DNA from: Actinotalea ferrariae
Lineage (GTDB): Bacteria; Actinomycetota; Actinomycetes; Actinomycetales; Cellulomonadaceae
Assembly (NCBI RefSeq): GCF_019733465.1
Contig: NZ_JACVQL010000057.1
Location: 1-34,945 of the forward strand
Length of the DNA stretch: 34,945 nt
Direction: 5' to 3'
Below are positions 1 to 24,102 of the stretch, one piece after another. Made by a program: the position numbers and the translations under genes. Each line of letters begins with the position of its first letter. The first letter of the stretch is position 1. Below the pieces are notes generated by a model, which ran no database searches, was not told where the DNA came from, and saw only the letters and a list, made by a program, of their open reading frames with translations.

Positions 1-32
1 CGAAGGCCGGGACCCGCGGGTCCCGGCCTTCG
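1..32. terminator. Perfect inverted repeat, probable terminator
   Basis: A perfect hairpin: a 14-base left arm starting CGAAGGCC, a CGCG centre and the exact complementary right arm. It lies 14 bases beyond the stop of the minus-strand cation transporter (47-1087), where its terminator is expected. No T-run is visible on the plus side, and the minus-strand continuation leaves the window. It could serve both strands. Confidence 0.7.
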
Positions 33-46
33 TCGCGTCCGGGCGC

Positions 47-1087
47 TCAGCCGGCGTCGTGGCCGCGGCGTGGCCGCTCGTCGCGGGGGCCGCGACGCCT
101 CGCGTCCGCGTCCGCGTCGACCCCGGGCAGCAGCTCGTCGGGCAGCTCGGGCACGGGCACGACGACGACGTCCTGCACCTTCCAGTCGAGCGCGACCAGG
201 GCCTCCTTCGCCGTGACCAGCTCGGCGAGCGAGGGAGACGCGCCGCCGCGCGGCACCGCGAAGGCCTCGACGTGGAACACGTGCCCCTCGTCGCGCACCC
301 GGCACCGCGCCTCCTCGACCCACGGCAGGTCCGTGAGCCGCTCCTCGAGCTGCGCCACGAGCGGGTGGGGGGCGTCGCCGTCGACGGTCTGTGCGCGGGA
401 GTCCATGAGCGCGGAGACCGCCGTGCGGAGGTTGCGCACGCCGTCGTGCAGGATGCTGCCCGAGATGAAGAGGGCGGCCACCGCGTCCGCCCACCACAAC
501 CCCAGGCCGATGCCGAGCACGCCGACCACGCCGCCGAGCGCCGTCATCCAGTCGGCCTTGTTCATGTCGGCGTCGGCGTGCAGCACGCGGTCGTGCAGCG
601 ACCGGGCCAGCGGCATCTTGGCGCGGCCCAGGAGCACCGGCGGGATGCCCGTGTAGACGAGCACGGCGATCATCGGCCAGCCCGACCGGACCACGTGCCC
701 GGCGATCTCCACGACGCCGACGGGCGGGTGCTCCTGCGCGAGCAGCCCTGACGCCGAGTCGAACACCATGAACGCGCCCATGGTCACGAGCGCGGTCGCG
801 GCGACGAGGTGCCCGACGCCGATCGACCGGTGATAGCCGTACGGGTGCCGTTCGCTCGGCGGACGGCGGGTCAGGTGCACGGCGACGAGGAACGAGATCG
901 GGGGGATGAAGGAGAGCAGGTCCTCGACCCACGCCGCCTTCATCGCCTGCGAGCTGCCCATGACGAGGTAGACGCCGGTCACGGCCGTGACGAGGAAGGC
1001 GATGGTCAACCAGGCGAGGCGGACGGCGCGACGGAGGTCGCGCTCCTCGTCGGCCGGGAGCTCGGTGCGTCCGAAGCGCGCGGTCAC
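47..1087 (-). CDS. CDF-type cation transporter with altered metal site
   Basis: A 346-residue inner-membrane protein of the cation diffusion facilitator type, which export divalent metals (Zn, Mn, Fe, Co) by proton antiport. Visible signs are several hydrophobic segments (about residues 24-43, 53-71, 90-116, 137-154, 180-215), the HPYG loop motif at 81-84 after the second segment, and a C-terminal cytoplasmic domain from about residue 230. The GTG start at 1087 overlaps the stop of the upstream lipoprotein as GTGA, so the two are probably translationally coupled. The start is internal to a longer open frame; the extension is only the shadow of the lipoprotein. By fixed-spacing comparison with E. 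coli YiiP (recalled from memory), the site-A ligands Asp45, Asp49, His153, Asp157 correspond to Glu55, Ser59, Met175, Asp179. Membership is fairly sure; substrate and activity are not. Confidence 0.85.
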   Translation of the reverse strand: MTARFGRTELPADEERDLRRAVRLAWLTIAFLVTAVTGVYLVMGSSQAMKAAWVEDLLSFIPPISFLVAVHLTRRPPSERHPYGYHRSIGVGHLVAATALVTMGAFMVFDSASGLLAQEHPPVGVVEIAGHVVRSGWPMIAVLVYTGIPPVLLGRAKMPLARSLHDRVLHADADMNKADWMTALGGVVGVLGIGLGLWWADAVAALFISGSILHDGVRNLRTAVSALMDSRAQTVDGDAPHPLVAQLEERLTDLPWVEEARCRVRDEGHVFHVEAFAVPRGGASPSLAELVTAKEALVALDWKVQDVVVVPVPELPDELLPGVDADADARRRGPRDERPRRGHDAG

Positions 1088-1563
1088 GGGTCGACGTCCT
1101 GCGCGAGGAGGAAGCGCTCGAGCTCGGTCATGAAGGCGTTCTCGCCCAGCCGCACGGCCATGACGTGCGCCTCGGGCTTCCCCTCGGGACCCGTGGTGTG
1201 CGCGTAGGGGTAGGTGAGCGCGGCGTGCTGGCTCCACGGGGAGGACGACGTCAGCCCGCCGACCACGAGGTCCAGCTCGTCGCGGTCGAGCTGGTCGACG
1301 AGCGCCTCCTCGCCGCCGCGGGTCCACTCGACCTCGGCGTCGAGCGTCCGGGCGAACTCGCGCACGAGGTCCGGCTCGATCCCGCGCGGGCCGGGCGCGT
1401 CGTCGTCCGGCTCGGCCTCGGTCCACGGCGGGTTCGCGGAGACGCCGACCCGCAGCACGCCGCCGCGCACGTCGTCGAGGGTGCCCTCCGGGTCCGTCGG
1501 GACCGTCGCGCCGCAGCCGGCGAGCAGCAGGCCGACGGCGACCACGACCACTCGTCTGATCAT
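1084..1563 (-). CDS. Short SBP_bac_3-like lipoprotein, one lobe only
   Basis: A 159-residue predicted lipoprotein: Arg-rich start, hydrophobic core and lipobox LAGC with Cys17. The mature part begins like family-3 solute-binding proteins (VLRVGVSANPPWT, then GIEPDLVREFA, then DLVVGGLT and LTYPYAHT) but passes almost at once to what looks like the family's C-terminal helix (GENAFMTELERFLL). The family usually has about 220-250 residues; the central second lobe seems absent. The ATG at 1563 was chosen because GGATGG precedes it and the signal peptide then has normal length; an ATG at 1581 is the alternative. It overlaps the cation transporter by four bases and lies 72 bases after the BY-kinase on the same strand. 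It probably sits outside the membrane; a role as transporter accessory or metal/ligand sensor is inference. Confidence 0.8.
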   Translation of the reverse strand: MIRRVVVVAVGLLLAGCGATVPTDPEGTLDDVRGGVLRVGVSANPPWTEAEPDDDAPGPRGIEPDLVREFARTLDAEVEWTRGGEEALVDQLDRDELDLVVGGLTSSSPWSQHAALTYPYAHTTGPEGKPEAHVMAVRLGENAFMTELERFLLAQDVDP

Positions 1564-1635: not shown

Positions 1636-3195
1636 TCAGTCCTGGTCGGCGCCGAGCGGCCCGCCCGGCCAGCGGTTGCCGCCGACGGCCGCCGCGAGCG
1701 CCTCCTCCGGGTGCTCGGGCACGACGTCGTGCCGGGCGGCGTCGCGGGACGGTGACCGCCCGGCCGTCCGGCGCGGCTCGACCTCCTGCGCGCGGCGCGC
1801 GGTGAGGGCGGACATGCGCCGGCTCTTGCGTGCCTCGCTCGTGGGCTCGAGCGGCGAGTAGTCGTAGTACGCGTAGGAGCCGGCCTGCTTGGCCGGGACG
1901 CGGTTGAGGACGAGGCCGAGCACGCGGGCGCCGACCGTCTCGAGCGCCCCGAGCGACTGGCCCAGCTCCTGCTGGTGCACGGAGTGCGCGCCGACGACGA
2001 CGATCGCGCCGCCCGTGAGCCGGGCGAGGATCGCGGCGTCGGTCACGGGCAGGAGCGGCGGCGTGTCGATGATGACGACGTCGTACCGGCTGCTCACGGT
2101 CGCGAGCAGCTCCGCCATGGTGCGCGAGCCGAGCAGCTCGCTGGGGTTCGGGGGGATCTGGCCCGACGGGAGCACGTGCAGCTGGCCGTTGCCCCAGGGC
2201 TGGACGACGTCCTGCACCGAGGCGCGGCCGATGAGCACGGTGGTCAGGCCGACGGTGCCCTCGAGGTCCATGTACCGGGCGACCGACGGGCGGCGCAGGT
2301 CCGCGTCGATCAGCAGCACGCGCGTCCCCGCGTCGGCGAGCGTGATCGCGAGGTTGATCGCCGTCGTGGACTTGCCCTCACCGGGCAGCGACGACGTCAC
2401 GACCATCGTCTGCAGGTCGTCGGTCACGTCGAGGAACTGGAGGTTGGTGCGCAGGCGGCGGAAGGACTCGGAGCGCTGGCTGTGCGGGTTCGCCGCGAGC
2501 AGCAGCGGGCTCCGGGTCGCGTCGTCGTCGTGCACGATCTGGGCGACGACGGAGGTGCCGGTGACCTTGCGCACGTCCGCCTCGGTGCGCACCCGGGTGT
2601 CGAGGACCTCGCGCAGCAGCGCGATGCCGAAGCCGAGGGCGAGGCCGACGAGCACGCCGAGGGCCACGTTGAGCTTCGTGTTCGGGCTGGCCGGGTCGAC
2701 GGGCGGTGCGGCGGCGCGCACGGAGCTGATCTGCACGGGCGAGGGCCCGTCCTGCGGCTTCTCGAGCACGGTCACCTCGGTCGCGAGGCTCTCGGCCGTC
2801 GAGTTCGCGATGTCCGCGGCGTGCTGCGGGTCCTCGTGCGTGGCGGTGATGTTGATGAGGACGGTGTCGAGCGGGTTGTCGGCGGCGATCGACCGCGCGA
2901 GCTCGTCCGGGGTGGTGCTCAGGTCGAGGTTCTCGATCACGGGGATGAGCACGCGCGGGCTCGTCACCAGGTCCGTGTACGACTTGACCTGCTTCTGCGT
3001 GAAGCTGCTGCCCTGCAGGAGGTCCGAGGTCGTCCCGCCGCCCGTGCGGACTGAGACGAACACCTGCGCGCGCGCCTCGTACGTCGGCGTCGTCAGCAAC
3101 GTCACGCCGACGGCGGCCCCGAGGGCGACGAGCGTGATGAGCGAGATCGACACCCAGCGCTTGCGCAGGATCGCGACGTAGTCCTGAAGTTCCAC
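1636..3195 (-). CDS. Wzz/BY-kinase polysaccharide co-polymerase
   Basis: A 519-residue fusion of a chain-length determinant (Wzz) domain and a bacterial tyrosine kinase (CpsD/Wzc type). Residues 1-50 hold the Wzz start and first membrane segment (about 16-36); the proline-rich PVDPASPN motif at 166-172 precedes the second segment (about 175-194). The kinase has Walker A LPGEGKST at 270-277, Walker A' LLIDADLRRP at 294-303 and Walker B VVIIDTPP at 373-380. A tyrosine cluster YAYYDY at 441-446 is the likely autophosphorylation site, with about 70 Arg-rich residues after it, which is unusual since the cluster is often terminal. The GTG at 3195 has GGGGGAG six bases upstream. The gene is divergent from the exopolysaccharide operon, whose polymer length and export it should control. 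Confidence 0.93.
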   Translation of the reverse strand: MELQDYVAILRKRWVSISLITLVALGAAVGVTLLTTPTYEARAQVFVSVRTGGGTTSDLLQGSSFTQKQVKSYTDLVTSPRVLIPVIENLDLSTTPDELARSIAADNPLDTVLINITATHEDPQHAADIANSTAESLATEVTVLEKPQDGPSPVQISSVRAAAPPVDPASPNTKLNVALGVLVGLALGFGIALLREVLDTRVRTEADVRKVTGTSVVAQIVHDDDATRSPLLLAANPHSQRSESFRRLRTNLQFLDVTDDLQTMVVTSSLPGEGKSTTAINLAITLADAGTRVLLIDADLRRPSVARYMDLEGTVGLTTVLIGRASVQDVVQPWGNGQLHVLPSGQIPPNPSELLGSRTMAELLATVSSRYDVVIIDTPPLLPVTDAAILARLTGGAIVVVGAHSVHQQELGQSLGALETVGARVLGLVLNRVPAKQAGSYAYYDYSPLEPTSEARKSRRMSALTARRAQEVEPRRTAGRSPSRDAARHDVVPEHPEEALAAAVGGNRWPGGPLGADQD

Positions 3196-3378
3196 CTGAT
3201 CTCCCCCATGGGTGCTGTCCTTCGTGGCCCATCGGCGCACGGGGGACCGGTGTGAGGCGTTCGCGGCATGCGTCCTCGGTCCGCGGCAACGCCTCACATC
3301 CCGCGCGCTCGGCCGATCGGGGTGGTGACGCGCCCTCGCCCGAGGGGGCGCGCCGACGAGCGCGACAAGGCGGTGACC
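3196..3378. promoter_or_regulatory. Divergent control region of the EPS locus
   Basis: This is the only gap between the BY-kinase (minus) and the nine-gene EPS operon (plus), so promoters for both should lie here. It contains an exact inverted repeat, TGTGAGGCGTT at 3251-3261 and AACGCCTCACA at 3288-3298, 26 bases apart, with CGCGG beside the left arm and CCGCGG beside the right. No convincing -35/-10 pair was recognised. It could be a two-site operator or a stem-loop. Confidence 0.5.
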
Positions 3379-4986
3379 ATGCCCGGAGCAGTGCCCGACC
3401 TCTCTGACGTCGGCCTCACCTCGGCGGCACCGTCCGTGCCCTCTCCGGGCGGCGGGCGGCTGGACCACGTCCCCGCGCACCGCGACGGCGTCCCGGCGCC
3501 GCACGACGGCGTCCCCGCGCAGCGCGACGGCCGGGCGGGGGCGGTCGTCCCCGTGCGTGCCGGGCACCGCCGCTGGTGGGTCGCCTACTCGACGCGCGTG
3601 CTGCTGACCGACGCCGTCGCCGTCTACGTCGCCGTCTTCACGGCCTACGTCGTGCGCGAGGACGCCGCCGGGATCGCGCGCGTGAGCGGGCAGCTGTCGC
3701 CGACGTACCTCGCGGTGTCCGTCACGCTGATGTGGGCGTGGCTCTTCGCGCTCGTCGCGGGCCGCACGCAGGACCGGCGGCTCGTCGGCGTCGGGCCGGC
3801 CGAGTACCAGCGGGTGTTCTCCGTGTCGTGGCGCCTCTTCGCCGCGGTGGCGGTCGTCGCCTACCTCGGCCGGATGGAGATCGGGCGCGGCTACCTCGGC
3901 ATCGCGTTCCCCCTGGGCCTCGCCCTGCTCCTCGCCGGCCGCTACGGCTGGCGCCAGTGGCTCAAGCGGCGTCGGCGCGTGGGGGAGCTGCAGTCCTGCG
4001 TGCTCGTCGTCGGACACCGCGGGAAGGCCGAGCAGACCGTGCGCGAGCTGCGCGAGCGCTCCGGAGCGGGCTTCGGCGTCGTCGGCGTGTGCCTCCCCGC
4101 GGGGGAGGCCGACGGCGGCCCGGTCGACGGCGTCCCGGTGCTCGGCACGACCGACGAGGCCGCCGCCGTCGCGCGGCGCGAGGCCGTCGACGCCGTCACC
4201 GTCGTGGGCGCGGACTCGCTCACGTCCGACGTCGTGCGGCGGCTGGGCTGGGACCTCGAGGGCTCGGGCATCGACCTCGCCCTCACGGTCGCGGTGCGCG
4301 ACGTCGCCGGGCCGCGGGTGATCGTCAACCCCGTCAACGGCCTGCCCCTCGTGTACGTCGACGAGCCGCGGTTCTCCGGACCGAAGTACCTGGTCAAGAC
4401 GGTGTTCGACTGGTGCGGCGCGCTCGTGCTGTGCCTGCTGCTCGCGCCCGTGCTCGTGGTCGTCGCCGTGCTCGTGCGGCTCTCCGGCCCGGGGCCCGTG
4501 CTCTACACGCAGGAGCGCATCGGCGCGGGCGGCCGGACGTTCCGGATGCTCAAGTTCCGCTCGATGGTCGCGGGTGCGCACGAGCGCCTGGCCGAGGTGC
4601 TGGCCGCCGAGGGCGTGGCCGACGTCGGGCTCTTCTACAAGCCGAAGAACGACCCGCGCGTGACGCGCGTGGGCCGCGTGCTCCGCCGGTTCTCGCTCGA
4701 CGAGCTGCCGCAGCTGTTCAACGTGCTGCGCGGCGACATGAGCCTCGTCGGCCCGCGGCCGCAGATCGCGGACGAGGTCGCCCTCTACGACCGCAAGGCG
4801 CACCGCCGCCTCCTCGTGAAGCCGGGGCTGACGGGCCTGTGGCAGACGTCGGGCCGGTCGGGCCTCAGCCCGGCCGAGGGGATCAGGATGGACGTGTACT
4901 ACGTGGAGAACTGGACGCTGTTCGGCGACCTGCTCATCCTCGTGCGGACGGCCAAGGCCGTGCTGGCCGCGGAGGGTGCGCGGTGA
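3379..4986 (+). CDS. Polyprenyl-phosphate sugar-1-P transferase (EPS priming enzyme)
   Basis: A 535-residue WbaP/GumD-type enzyme that moves a sugar-1-phosphate from a nucleotide sugar to undecaprenyl phosphate, the first step of repeat-unit assembly at the inner membrane. The N-terminal half has several membrane segments (from about residue 70) and a nucleotide-binding-like cytoplasmic region. The C-terminal bacterial sugar transferase domain starts near residue 338 ([11 protein letters not shown]) and shows [18 protein letters not shown], the [20 protein letters not shown] region with the catalytic Asp-Glu pair, and KPGLTGLWQ. The ATG at 3379 has AAGG eight bases upstream; a frame-extending ATG at 3268 has no such site and lies inside the inverted repeat. 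The N-terminus carries three copies of a VPAxxDG heptad. It is first of nine overlapping genes. The sugar is unknown. Confidence 0.92.
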
Positions 4987-22118: not shown

Positions 22119-23026
22119 CCCTTCACCGCTCCCTGCATGATGCCCGAGACCAGCTGCCGGCCGGCGACGGCGAACAGCAGGATGAGCGGGATGGTCGCCG
22201 CGACGACACCAGCCATGATCAACGCGTAGTCCTTGAAGTAGGAGGCCTGCAGCAGCTGCAGCGCCACGGGGAGCGTCGGGTTGGTGGACCCGAGCACGAT
22301 GAACGGCCAGAAGAACGAGGTCCACGACCCGACGAAGGTGAAGAGCGCGAGCATCGCGGCAGCCGGGCGGGCCGCCGGGATGGCGACGTGCCAGAAGGTG
22401 CGGATCATCGAGCACCCGTCGACGCGCGCCGCCTCGATGAGCTCGTAGGGGAGCGCCTCCTCGAGGTACTGCGACATCCAGAACACGCCGAAGGCCGTGA
22501 CGAGGCCCGGCACGATCACCGCGACGAGCTTGCCCGTCCACTCGAGCTTCGACATGACGATGAACAGCGGCACGATGCCCAGCTGGGCGGGGACCGCCAT
22601 CGTCGCGATGATGAAGACCAGCAGCGGCCGGCGGCCGCGGAAGCGCAGCTTGGCGAACGCGAAGCCTGCGAGCGTCGCGAAGAACACGACGGACACCGAC
22701 GTGACGACGGCCACGATGATGCTGTTGCCGACGGCCTCCCAGAACTTGATGTCCGAGGAGATGACGCGGCCGATGTTGTCGAACAGGTTCGGCCCCGGGA
22801 TGAGCGAGGGGACCGGGTTCTGCGCGATCGTCGCCGAGTCCGAGGACGCGAGCAGGAAGGCGTAGTAGATCGGGTAGGCCGAGATCGCGAGGACCAGGCC
22901 GAGCAGCGTGTACGTGATCCAGCCGGGCCGACGGTTGACGCCGGCGCCGCCGAGGTTGCGCTTGCGCGCCGCCGCACGGGCGGCACCACGGCCGGCCGTC
23001 TGGGCGATCATGGGGACCGAGCTCAT
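22115..23026 (-). CDS. Carbohydrate ABC transporter permease (MalG/CebG type)
   Basis: A 303-residue inner-membrane permease of the carbohydrate uptake-1 family. It has six hydrophobic segments and the EAA loop as YELIEAARVDGCSMIRTFWHV, where the ATPase docks. A polar Arg-rich stretch of about 30 residues precedes the first membrane segment (WITYTLLGLVLAISAYPIYYA). The ATG at 23026 overlaps the stop of the partner permease by four bases, with GGAGG-like sequence upstream on the minus strand. No ATPase gene is in the operon; a shared MsiK-like ATPase elsewhere is usual for these systems. Confidence 0.92.
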
Positions 23027-24102
23027 CGGAGGCCACCCTTCTCGATGTTGCGGGCGGCGCTGCGCGCGGCGGCCCGGCTGCGCCGGCGGCTCTCGCTGCC
23101 GGGCTGGGCGGTGGACGCGATGCGTCGCGTGATGGCGAAGTTGATGAGGCCGATCACCACGATGATGAGGAAGAGGATCCACGCGACGGCGGCCGCTCGG
23201 CCGAAGCTCTTCTGGGCGCCCCAGCCGAGCTCGTAGAGGAACATCGTCACGGTCATCCACTGCCGGTCCGCGCCGCCCTGGCCGAGCTGGTCGAACATGC
23301 GCGGCTCGTCGAAGATCTGCAGGCCGCCGATGGTCGACGTGATGACCACGAAGATCACCGTCGGCCGCAGCAGCGGCACCGTGACCGAGAAGAACTGCCG
23401 CACGCGCGAGGCGCCGTCGATCACCGAGGCCTCGTACAGGTCGCGCGGGATCGCCTGCATCGCGGCGAGGAAGATGAGCGCGTTGTAGCCGGTCCACCGG
23501 AAGTTGACCATCGTCGCGATGGCGACGTGGCTCGACAGCGGGTCGGCGTGCCAGCGGATCGGGCCGATGCCGACGGTCCCCAGCAGGCTGTTGATCATGC
23601 CGGCCTGGTCGGCGAAGAGGCGCGAGAAGATCAGCGCGACGGCGACGGGCGCGACGACGTAGGGCAGCAGGACGCCCATCCGCCAGAAGGTCTTGGCGCG
23701 CAGGTTCGCGTCGAGCACCGCCGCGATGACGATGGCCGCGATGACCTGGGGCACGGAGGACAGCAGGAAGATGCTGAACGTGTTGCGCAGCGCGGTCATG
23801 AACCGCGGCTGCTGCACGACGTCGAGGTAGTTCTGGACGCCGACGAACTCACCCTGGCCGCCGATCAGGTGCCAGTCGTGCACCGAGACGTACGCCGTGT
23901 AGATCAGCGGGAAGAGCCCGACGACGGCGAACACCAGGAAGAACGGCGAGATGTAGAGGTACGGCGAGACCTTGACGTCGAGCCGGCCGAGGAGGTTGCG
24001 CCGACGCTGGCGCGGGTCCTCGGGGGGCGCGTCGTGGGCGGGCACCCGCCGGGTGCGGTCAGGCACGCCCGGCTCGGTCCCGACGGGGACGGTGACTGAC
24101 AC
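23023..24102 (-). CDS. Carbohydrate ABC transporter permease (MalF/CebF type)
   Basis: A 359-residue inner-membrane permease, partner of the downstream one. A polar N-terminus of about 45 residues precedes membrane segments beginning YLYISPFFLVFAVVGLFPLIY; the EAA loop reads DLYEASVIDGASRVRQFFSV. The C-terminus is rich in Arg and Ala. The GTG at 24102 has GGAG six bases upstream. A 178-base gap with a strong stem-loop separates it from the binding-protein gene, so it is probably expressed at a lower level than that gene. Confidence 0.92.
   Translation of the reverse strand: MSVTVPVGTEPGVPDRTRRVPAHDAPPEDPRQRRRNLLGRLDVKVSPYLYISPFFLVFAVVGLFPLIYTAYVSVHDWHLIGGQGEFVGVQNYLDVVQQPRFMTALRNTFSIFLLSSVPQVIAAIVIAAVLDANLRAKTFWRMGVLLPYVVAPVAVALIFSRLFADQAGMINSLLGTVGIGPIRWHADPLSSHVAIATMVNFRWTGYNALIFLAAMQAIPRDLYEASVIDGASRVRQFFSVTVPLLRPTVIFVVITSTIGGLQIFDEPRMFDQLGQGGADRQWMTVTMFLYELGWGAQKSFGRAAAVAWILFLIIVVIGLINFAITRRIASTAQPGSESRRRSRAAARSAARNIEKGGLR

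Follow-up and report, generated by a model that had tools for sequence, protein, structure and literature searches.

Binding proteins of family 3 (PF00497) are characterized by two lobes, a ligand-binding arginine, and an ABC partner. The window, as the whole analysed stretch of 34,945 nucleotides from Actinotalea ferrariae is called here, carries near one end a gene whose product shares with this family of solute-binding proteins (SBPs) the profile match, the lobe-1 fold, and the lipoprotein-type export signal, but which has only one lobe and a replaced arginine, and is joined to a CDF-type transporter with no permease adjacent. What can a binding protein that has been cut to one lobe be doing beside a transporter of this kind? 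The answer towards which the evidence leans, with modest confidence, is that the lipoprotein is an extracytoplasmic accessory subunit of a divergent CDF-type transporter and no longer a Venus flytrap. The features of the locus are as follows.

1..32, no strand assigned: inverted repeat without mismatch, arms of 15 nt each flanking a central GC, terminator-like; directly past the transporter stop, at the contig end
47..1087, minus strand: divergent Cation_efflux (CDF-superfamily) membrane transporter, 346 aa
551..565, minus strand: transporter M175xxxD179, aligned with YiiP His155xxxAsp159
911-913, minus strand: transporter S59, aligning with YiiP Asp51
920..925, minus strand: transporter E55-D56, of which E55 aligns with YiiP Asp47
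1084..1087, minus strand: GTGA overlap of lipoprotein stop and transporter start, seen in the sequence
1084..1563, minus strand: one-lobed SBP_bac_3-derived lipoprotein, 159 aa; ATG at 1563, in-frame alternative starts at 1575 and 1581
1105..1167, minus strand: lobe 1, C-terminal part, return strand and helix (residues 133-153), from the AlphaFold2 model and alignment
1138..1146, minus strand: GEN motif (residues 140-142); G and E in 85/85 rows, N in 84/85
1165..1203, minus strand: short connector at the lobe-2 site of two-lobed relatives (residues 121-133), from alignment
1192..1482, minus strand: lobe 1, N-terminal part (residues 28-124), from the SBP_bac_3 profile, AlphaFold2 model and structure match
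1234..1236, minus strand: Trp110, which by profile alignment stands where SBPs have the Arg of their 'TPER' motif
1513..1563, minus strand: signal peptide with lipobox-like LLLAGC; Cys17 kept in 76/76 one-lobed rows
22163-22675 and 23119-23742, minus strand: two BPD_transp_1 (ABC permease) domains, close together, by profile match; about 21 kb from the lipoprotein gene

The lipoprotein and its missing lobe

A sequence-only reading of this DNA had described a lipoprotein that retains the start of a family-3 SBP, and this description stands. The protein scores 37.4 bits against SBP_bac_3 (cut-off 26.4) over profile positions 1-86 of 132, and its lipobox-like LLLAGC contains Cys17. Four other SBP_bac_3 matches in the same genome span profile positions 1 or 2 to 123-131. 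The relative L017 reaches 49.8 bits over profile positions 1-113, the Sphingobium form L055 scores 18.8 bits, below the cut-off, and the Sulfitobacter form L056 gives no match to this profile.

Structure prediction with AlphaFold2, for which an alignment of 17 homologues served as input, yielded a confident model (mean pLDDT 88.3, pTM 0.81) having the lobe-1 fold and one lobe only. The best four PDB matches listed by Foldseek are all the isolated domain 1 of TmArgBP (6y16, 7a99 twice, and 6gpc; E 2.9e-9 to 1.3e-8), which likewise consists of one lobe as an independent domain. Additionally, VIA-align places the model on TmArgBP domain 1 and on several full-length ArgBP entries with a Z of about 17, at 2.2-3.1 Å over 121-127 residues, the domain-1 entries spanning 123-127. 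The domain-1 entries were obtained by dissecting a two-lobed protein in the laboratory, and the match with them supports the lobe-1 anatomy that had been proposed earlier. According to the accessible text of PMC7589609, the man-made TmArgBP domain 1 retains arginine binding, whereas the window form is natural and its ligand arginine is gone.

The site of the loss becomes visible by comparison with two-lobed relatives. In an alignment of nine two-lobed and six one-lobed proteins, the gap starts a few residues past the lobe-1 'PY' and ends near the 'HVMAV' return strand. Asp98 and the GEN motif are separated by 109-112 residues in the two-lobed relatives and by 41-43 in most one-lobed proteins, a difference of about 67, with single one-lobed loci at 34, 39, 40, and 50. 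Values of 87-107 for L022, L023, L027, and L091 are false, the regular expression having matched an earlier site, and the one- and two-lobed labels were set by length. The AlphaFold2 model of the two-lobed L094 protein (pLDDT 90.1) contains the second lobe and one additional C-terminal helix, and it matches full arginine- and glutamine-binding proteins. The window lipoprotein is modelled without lobe 2 and without this terminal helix, its predicted C-terminus consisting of the return strand and the penultimate helix. Hence a second lobe is indeed missing, as had been supposed, but not the 90-100 residues then estimated: about 67 are measured here against two-lobed relatives, and the figure is smaller because lobe 2 is already short in those relatives. 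What had been taken for a retained last helix is the penultimate one.

The one-lobed form is by no means peculiar to the window; it occurs in a number of bacteria, for the most part actinobacteria. Removal of identical cores reduced 121 transporter loci to 85 distinct ones, in which 73 partners are one-lobed (142-165 aa), nine are two-lobed (225-235 aa), and three loci have none intact. With the window counted among the 73, the homologue search thus gave 72 one-lobed partners in other loci, so that a frameshift in a single genome or a local truncation was rejected. Seven of the two-lobed partners are actinobacterial (L034 in the same class, L094-L099 elsewhere in the phylum) and two lie on Sulfitobacter plasmids. 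Since SBPs are generally two-lobed, the one-lobed state is read as a loss of lobe 2 and not as the starting point of a gain. A transporter tree calls for two switches between the one- and the two-lobed state; it was built by a quick method with a midpoint root from 72 of the 85 transporters, leaving out the fragment L126 and 12 others including the two-lobed L099. In this tree, the two-lobed lineages lie between the actinobacterial and the alphaproteobacterial one-lobed clades (SH-aLRT 96, 97, and 99). Lobe 2 would accordingly have been lost twice independently, the second loss being likely but not proven, given the small number and long branches of the alphaproteobacterial rows and the midpoint rooting. 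The alphaproteobacterial members were drawn from plasmid records, and their one-lobed forms are reduced further than the others. Altogether, the structure prediction, the alignment with two-lobed sisters, and the tree bear out the earlier idea of a tidy excision of lobe 2 that kept both chain ends of lobe 1.

Single-domain SBPs have been described before. According to the accessible text of PMC10805632, RmSBP of Rhodothermus marinus (D0MDR1), first reported by Bae 2018 as cited, is a natural SBP with one alpha/beta domain of 164 aa without the signal peptide; it resembles the C-terminal SBP domain, and its gene reportedly lies close to one for a chemotaxis receptor, whereas the window protein is lobe 1. 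The word 'cation' is absent from the main text of that paper. RmSBP is absent among the matches listed for the window protein (48 in the profile search, 50 each in Foldseek and VIA-align). Furthermore, laboratory-made halves of ribose-binding protein (RBP) fold alone and lose binding, as stated in the accessible text of PMC10601554. The window protein is likewise a single-domain form of an SBP, and a binding-protein partner for a CDF-type transporter was not found described in the titles and abstracts covered by the literature search, subscription papers being mostly outside its scope. The shrinkage from two lobes to one represents a natural, probably repeated, experiment of the sort that engineers have probed by dissection in TmArgBP domain 1 and the RBP halves, and the two-lobed sisters with the same partner allow a direct before-and-after comparison.

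The gene pair, its distribution, and its neighbours

The four-base overlap with the transporter gene, already pointed out from the sequence, is the GTGA at 1084-1087. An exact 4-nt overlap recurs in 77 of the 85 distinct loci, window counted (GTGA in 39, ATGA in 38); these loci stem from several searches and are related to one another, so that they do not count as independent draws. Among the other eight, two have no partner frame and six have another spacing or a transporter or partner frame that is broken or fragmentary. Overlaps of 4 nt are common between bacterial genes generally.

Co-occurrence was followed in several genome samples, in which all counts are lower bounds since the searches score part of the candidates per genome. 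Within the family (150 genomes), at least 21 genomes matched profile A1: in 17 the match lies beside the transporter, in G033 it stands without one, G173 and G175 contain remnants (the former with a broken transporter, the latter with none), and in G119 it is an ordinary SBP. At the level of the order (347 genomes), the transporter occurs in at least 49 genomes and all 49 have an adjacent same-strand SBP-like partner, the transporter frame being broken in G529. Class-wide (394 genomes), profile A1 matches in at least 17 genomes, two of which (G559 and G207) contribute low-scoring ordinary two-lobed SBPs, and one identical set of at least 15 genomes contains the transporter, at E<=1e-40, and the true partner, at E<=1e-10. 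A phylum sample of 149 genomes contains the transporter in at least seven, the window's genome counted, and in the order of G362 (200 genomes) it was found, among the matches obtained, only in G362 itself. The same gene pair is also present on alphaproteobacterial plasmids.

The two genes are occasionally found apart. Arthrobacter sp. H14 and A. castelli carry a lone one-lobed gene (L018, L019) together with a transporter at a separate locus that has no partner there. The retention of both genes although they are unlinked favours the pairing, while their lack of adjacency weighs against a subunit. G033 has an intact-looking one-lobed gene and no transporter match in its genome, while the Arthrobacter plasmid p232 has a broken one-lobed gene and no transporter match in the 12-kb locus. 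Two later-found transporters without an adjacent partner (L137, L138) stand outside the 85. The Sphingobium YC-XJ2 locus contains no recognisable partner. On the Variovorax PBS-H4 plasmid (L061), the partner's place is taken by a CocE/NonD hydrolase gene that shares a 4-nt overlap with the transporter gene; as this transporter falls within the actinobacterial clade, it was probably acquired.

Values of dN/dS were sought for 13 pairs, the partner being represented by its last 135 codons only. Ten close or moderate one-lobed pairs gave 0.11-0.40 for the lipoprotein and 0.08-0.31 for the transporter, and one further, nearly identical pair gave 0 and 0.30, respectively. The two-lobed Sulfitobacter pair L058/L059 yielded 0.04 for the transporter and no SBP value, and L098/L099 yielded none. 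The one-lobed proteins are under purifying selection. A conserved and selected two-gene module, in which lipoprotein and transporter would have a joint function, is well supported by these sequence comparisons.

Comparison of the neighbours gave weak recurrences only and fixed no pathway. What we take to be an SDR-like cluster lies near the pair in nine loci (L018, L058, L081, L086, L098, L099, L101, L120, and L122), and in L018 a presumably broken SDR-like frame directly follows the lipoprotein gene; a cluster that is presumably alcohol-dehydrogenase-like lies near the pair in four loci. Just upstream in the window, the genes at about 1636-3200 and 3268-4986 presumably encode a polysaccharide chain-length/tyrosine-kinase protein and a sugar transferase, marking the start of an exopolysaccharide-type cluster. 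The sequence-only reading had seen no ABC permease nearby, which is correct for the neighbours but not for the window, where the two BPD_transp_1 matches stand at a distance of about 21 kb. A search with Rfam of 20 sources (the window and 19 loci) returned two tRNAs only, and no riboswitch that would hint at a metal.

The divergent transporter

The window transporter shares with CDF transporters of the YiiP/FieF kind a PF01545 match (Cation_efflux; 87.7 bits, cut-off 26.6). YiiP/FieF is also its best solved relative (E 4e-6 with profile A3), a single-sequence search having given no solved relative at 0.001. It differs from them in that its score against TIGR01297, the NCBIfam CDF superfamily, is 74.2 bits and lies below the cut-off of 82.35, in that it fails the CDF signature, in its metal site, and in having a dedicated lipoprotein partner. 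The Montanini TMD II signature, the CDF signature published in PMC1868760 (as given in its accessible text), matches none of the 85 transporters, whereas the YiiP stretch used as control does match. Moreover, the same genome has seven other Cation_efflux matches; all four of those tested carry the classical signature, and no SBP-like neighbour is found within the loci of these four.

The canonical D/D/H/D of the metal site is mostly E/S/M/D in the 85-transporter set. Asp47, Asp51, His155, and Asp159 of YiiP are taken here to be its site A. Among the rows with a letter at the corresponding position, E55 is present in 83/83 and M175 in 84/84, position 59 is Ser in 67, Ala in 9, Gly in 5, Thr in 2, and Val in 1 of 84, and position 179 is Asp in 77. 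Owing to the failure of the signature, the TIGR01297 score below cut-off, and the replaced ligands, the protein is named a divergent CDF-superfamily transporter. Such changes in the site speak against a simple YiiP-like Zn pump. The coupling to a transporter gene that had been claimed earlier is strongly supported by co-occurrence and overlap, but the label 'cation transporter' should be read with caution since the canonical metal ligands are mostly replaced.

Position 179 holds the site's last conserved carboxylate; in seven of the 84 rows (L055, L057, L060, L106-L108, and L116) it is replaced by Asn.

Possible roles of the lipoprotein

A surface sensor, a metal chaperone, or a regulator of the transporter had been put forward from the sequence alone as candidate roles. 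Residue counts cover 76 one-lobed rows (73 loci with L004, L018, and L019) and nine two-lobed rows, that is, 85 rows. Cys17, P22, D24, G140, E141, and N142 are identical in all 76 one-lobed rows, and the near-invariant polar residues besides Cys17 and His133 are D24, E85, D98, E141, and N142. W80, E85, GG102-103, and PW109-110, which by SBP topology we take to form the cleft side of a whole SBP, remain conserved in one-lobed forms, as do the PxDP linker and the GEN end. Such conservation of the cleft side and of the linker/GEN end would look like two contact faces, or like one contact face and a small binding site. Position 110 is Trp in 71 of the 76 one-lobed and five of the nine two-lobed rows, and Arg in 0/85. 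The 'TPER' Arg of amino-acid SBPs is presumably the carboxylate-binding residue that anchors the amino acid. As this Arg is absent also in the two-lobed rows, the capacity for amino-acid binding was probably gone earlier than lobe 2.

For the accessory subunit favoured here, the following course may be envisaged. A two-lobed family-3 SBP ancestor lost lobe 2, and the resulting secreted lipoprotein would be placed outside, at the membrane surface, and serve there as an accessory to the transporter. Flytrap closure and delivery to an ABC permease would have been given up; closure is impossible when lobe 2 is absent, and amino-acid delivery is unlikely when the ligand arginine is lost. The lipoprotein would then act through the conserved faces of lobe 1, the cleft side and the PxDP linker/GEN end, and at the outer mouth it may either act as a gate for the transporter or retain the substrate or pass it on. 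Against this reading weigh the exceptions in G033, Variovorax PBS-H4, and Sphingobium YC-XJ2 and the eight loci without the exact overlap. Moreover, a patchy, mobile distribution would keep genes linked even without contact, and among conserved bacterial gene neighbours a shared pathway is more frequent than a shared complex. CDF-type carriers would gain an outer-face control or capture device should the lipoprotein indeed be a subunit. The pairing suggests a binding protein rebuilt as the partner for a kind of transporter not previously linked to such proteins. A more far-reaching version is put forward tentatively, namely that the pair represents a new kind of two-part transporter, in which a divergent carrier of CDF fold, its substrate site altered, possibly works with a dedicated extracytoplasmic subunit that derives from an ABC-type binding protein and was twice independently cut to one lobe without loss of the pairing.

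The lipoprotein could instead be an extracytoplasmic sensor, in which weak, reversible binding of a small ligand to lobe 1 alone would turn the transporter or another receptor on or off, though this is rather unlikely. The absence of the presumed anchoring Arg from all 85 rows, the nine two-lobed ones included, makes an amino-acid ligand unlikely. In favour of a sensor, the cleft-side residues W80, E85, GG102-103, and PW109-110 are conserved in the one-lobed forms. In addition, TmArgBP lobe 1 alone (F57W) binds arginine with a Kd of 3.4 uM and the ligand washes off, as given in the accessible text of PMC7589609.

A metallochaperone or metal-holding protein that receives an exported ion from the transporter appears improbable. 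The adjoining gene is of the Cation_efflux superfamily in nearly all loci, and on one plasmid the pair lies near a metal-sensing repressor, a P-type ATPase, and a ZIP transporter, but the neighbourhoods compared share no metal theme. His133 occurs in 47 of the 76 one-lobed and in all nine two-lobed rows (56/85); besides the lipobox Cys17 it is the only Cys or His that reaches half of the 85 rows, which weighs against a metal-holding role without excluding it.

Still less probable is an assembly or stability factor, that is, a lipoprotein that only folds or inserts the transporter while the gene overlap serves co-translation. The exact overlap in 77/85 loci and the loss of the ligand-closing lobe would suit such a factor, but the two genes stand at separate loci in two Arthrobacter genomes, and conservation of the surface cleft would then be unneeded. 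Finally, a degenerating gene or annotation artefact, in which a decaying SBP is kept by linkage or as a translation leader, has the further-reduced alphaproteobacterial forms and the remnants in G175, G173, and plasmid p232 in its favour, but is very improbable given the dN/dS of 0.11-0.40 in ten pairs, the invariant motifs in 76 one-lobed rows, and the narrow length of 142-165 aa in 73 loci.

Some mobile records of the pair deserve mention on their own. A phage origin of L054 (MT835505.1, 'Bacteriophage sp.', a faeces scaffold) was considered and rejected; as its neighbours are ordinary and bacterial-looking and its transporter is sister to one of this order, the record is probably a bacterial contig under a wrong label. 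When IMG/VR was searched with the transporter, one locus came out, in which a contig of 28.9 kb carries a one-lobed pair. In one plasmid record, the two parts are named 'transporter substrate-binding domain-containing protein' and 'cation transporter'. On several Sulfitobacter plasmids (L056, L136), the one-lobed partner is annotated as 'enoyl-CoA hydratase', apparently wrongly.
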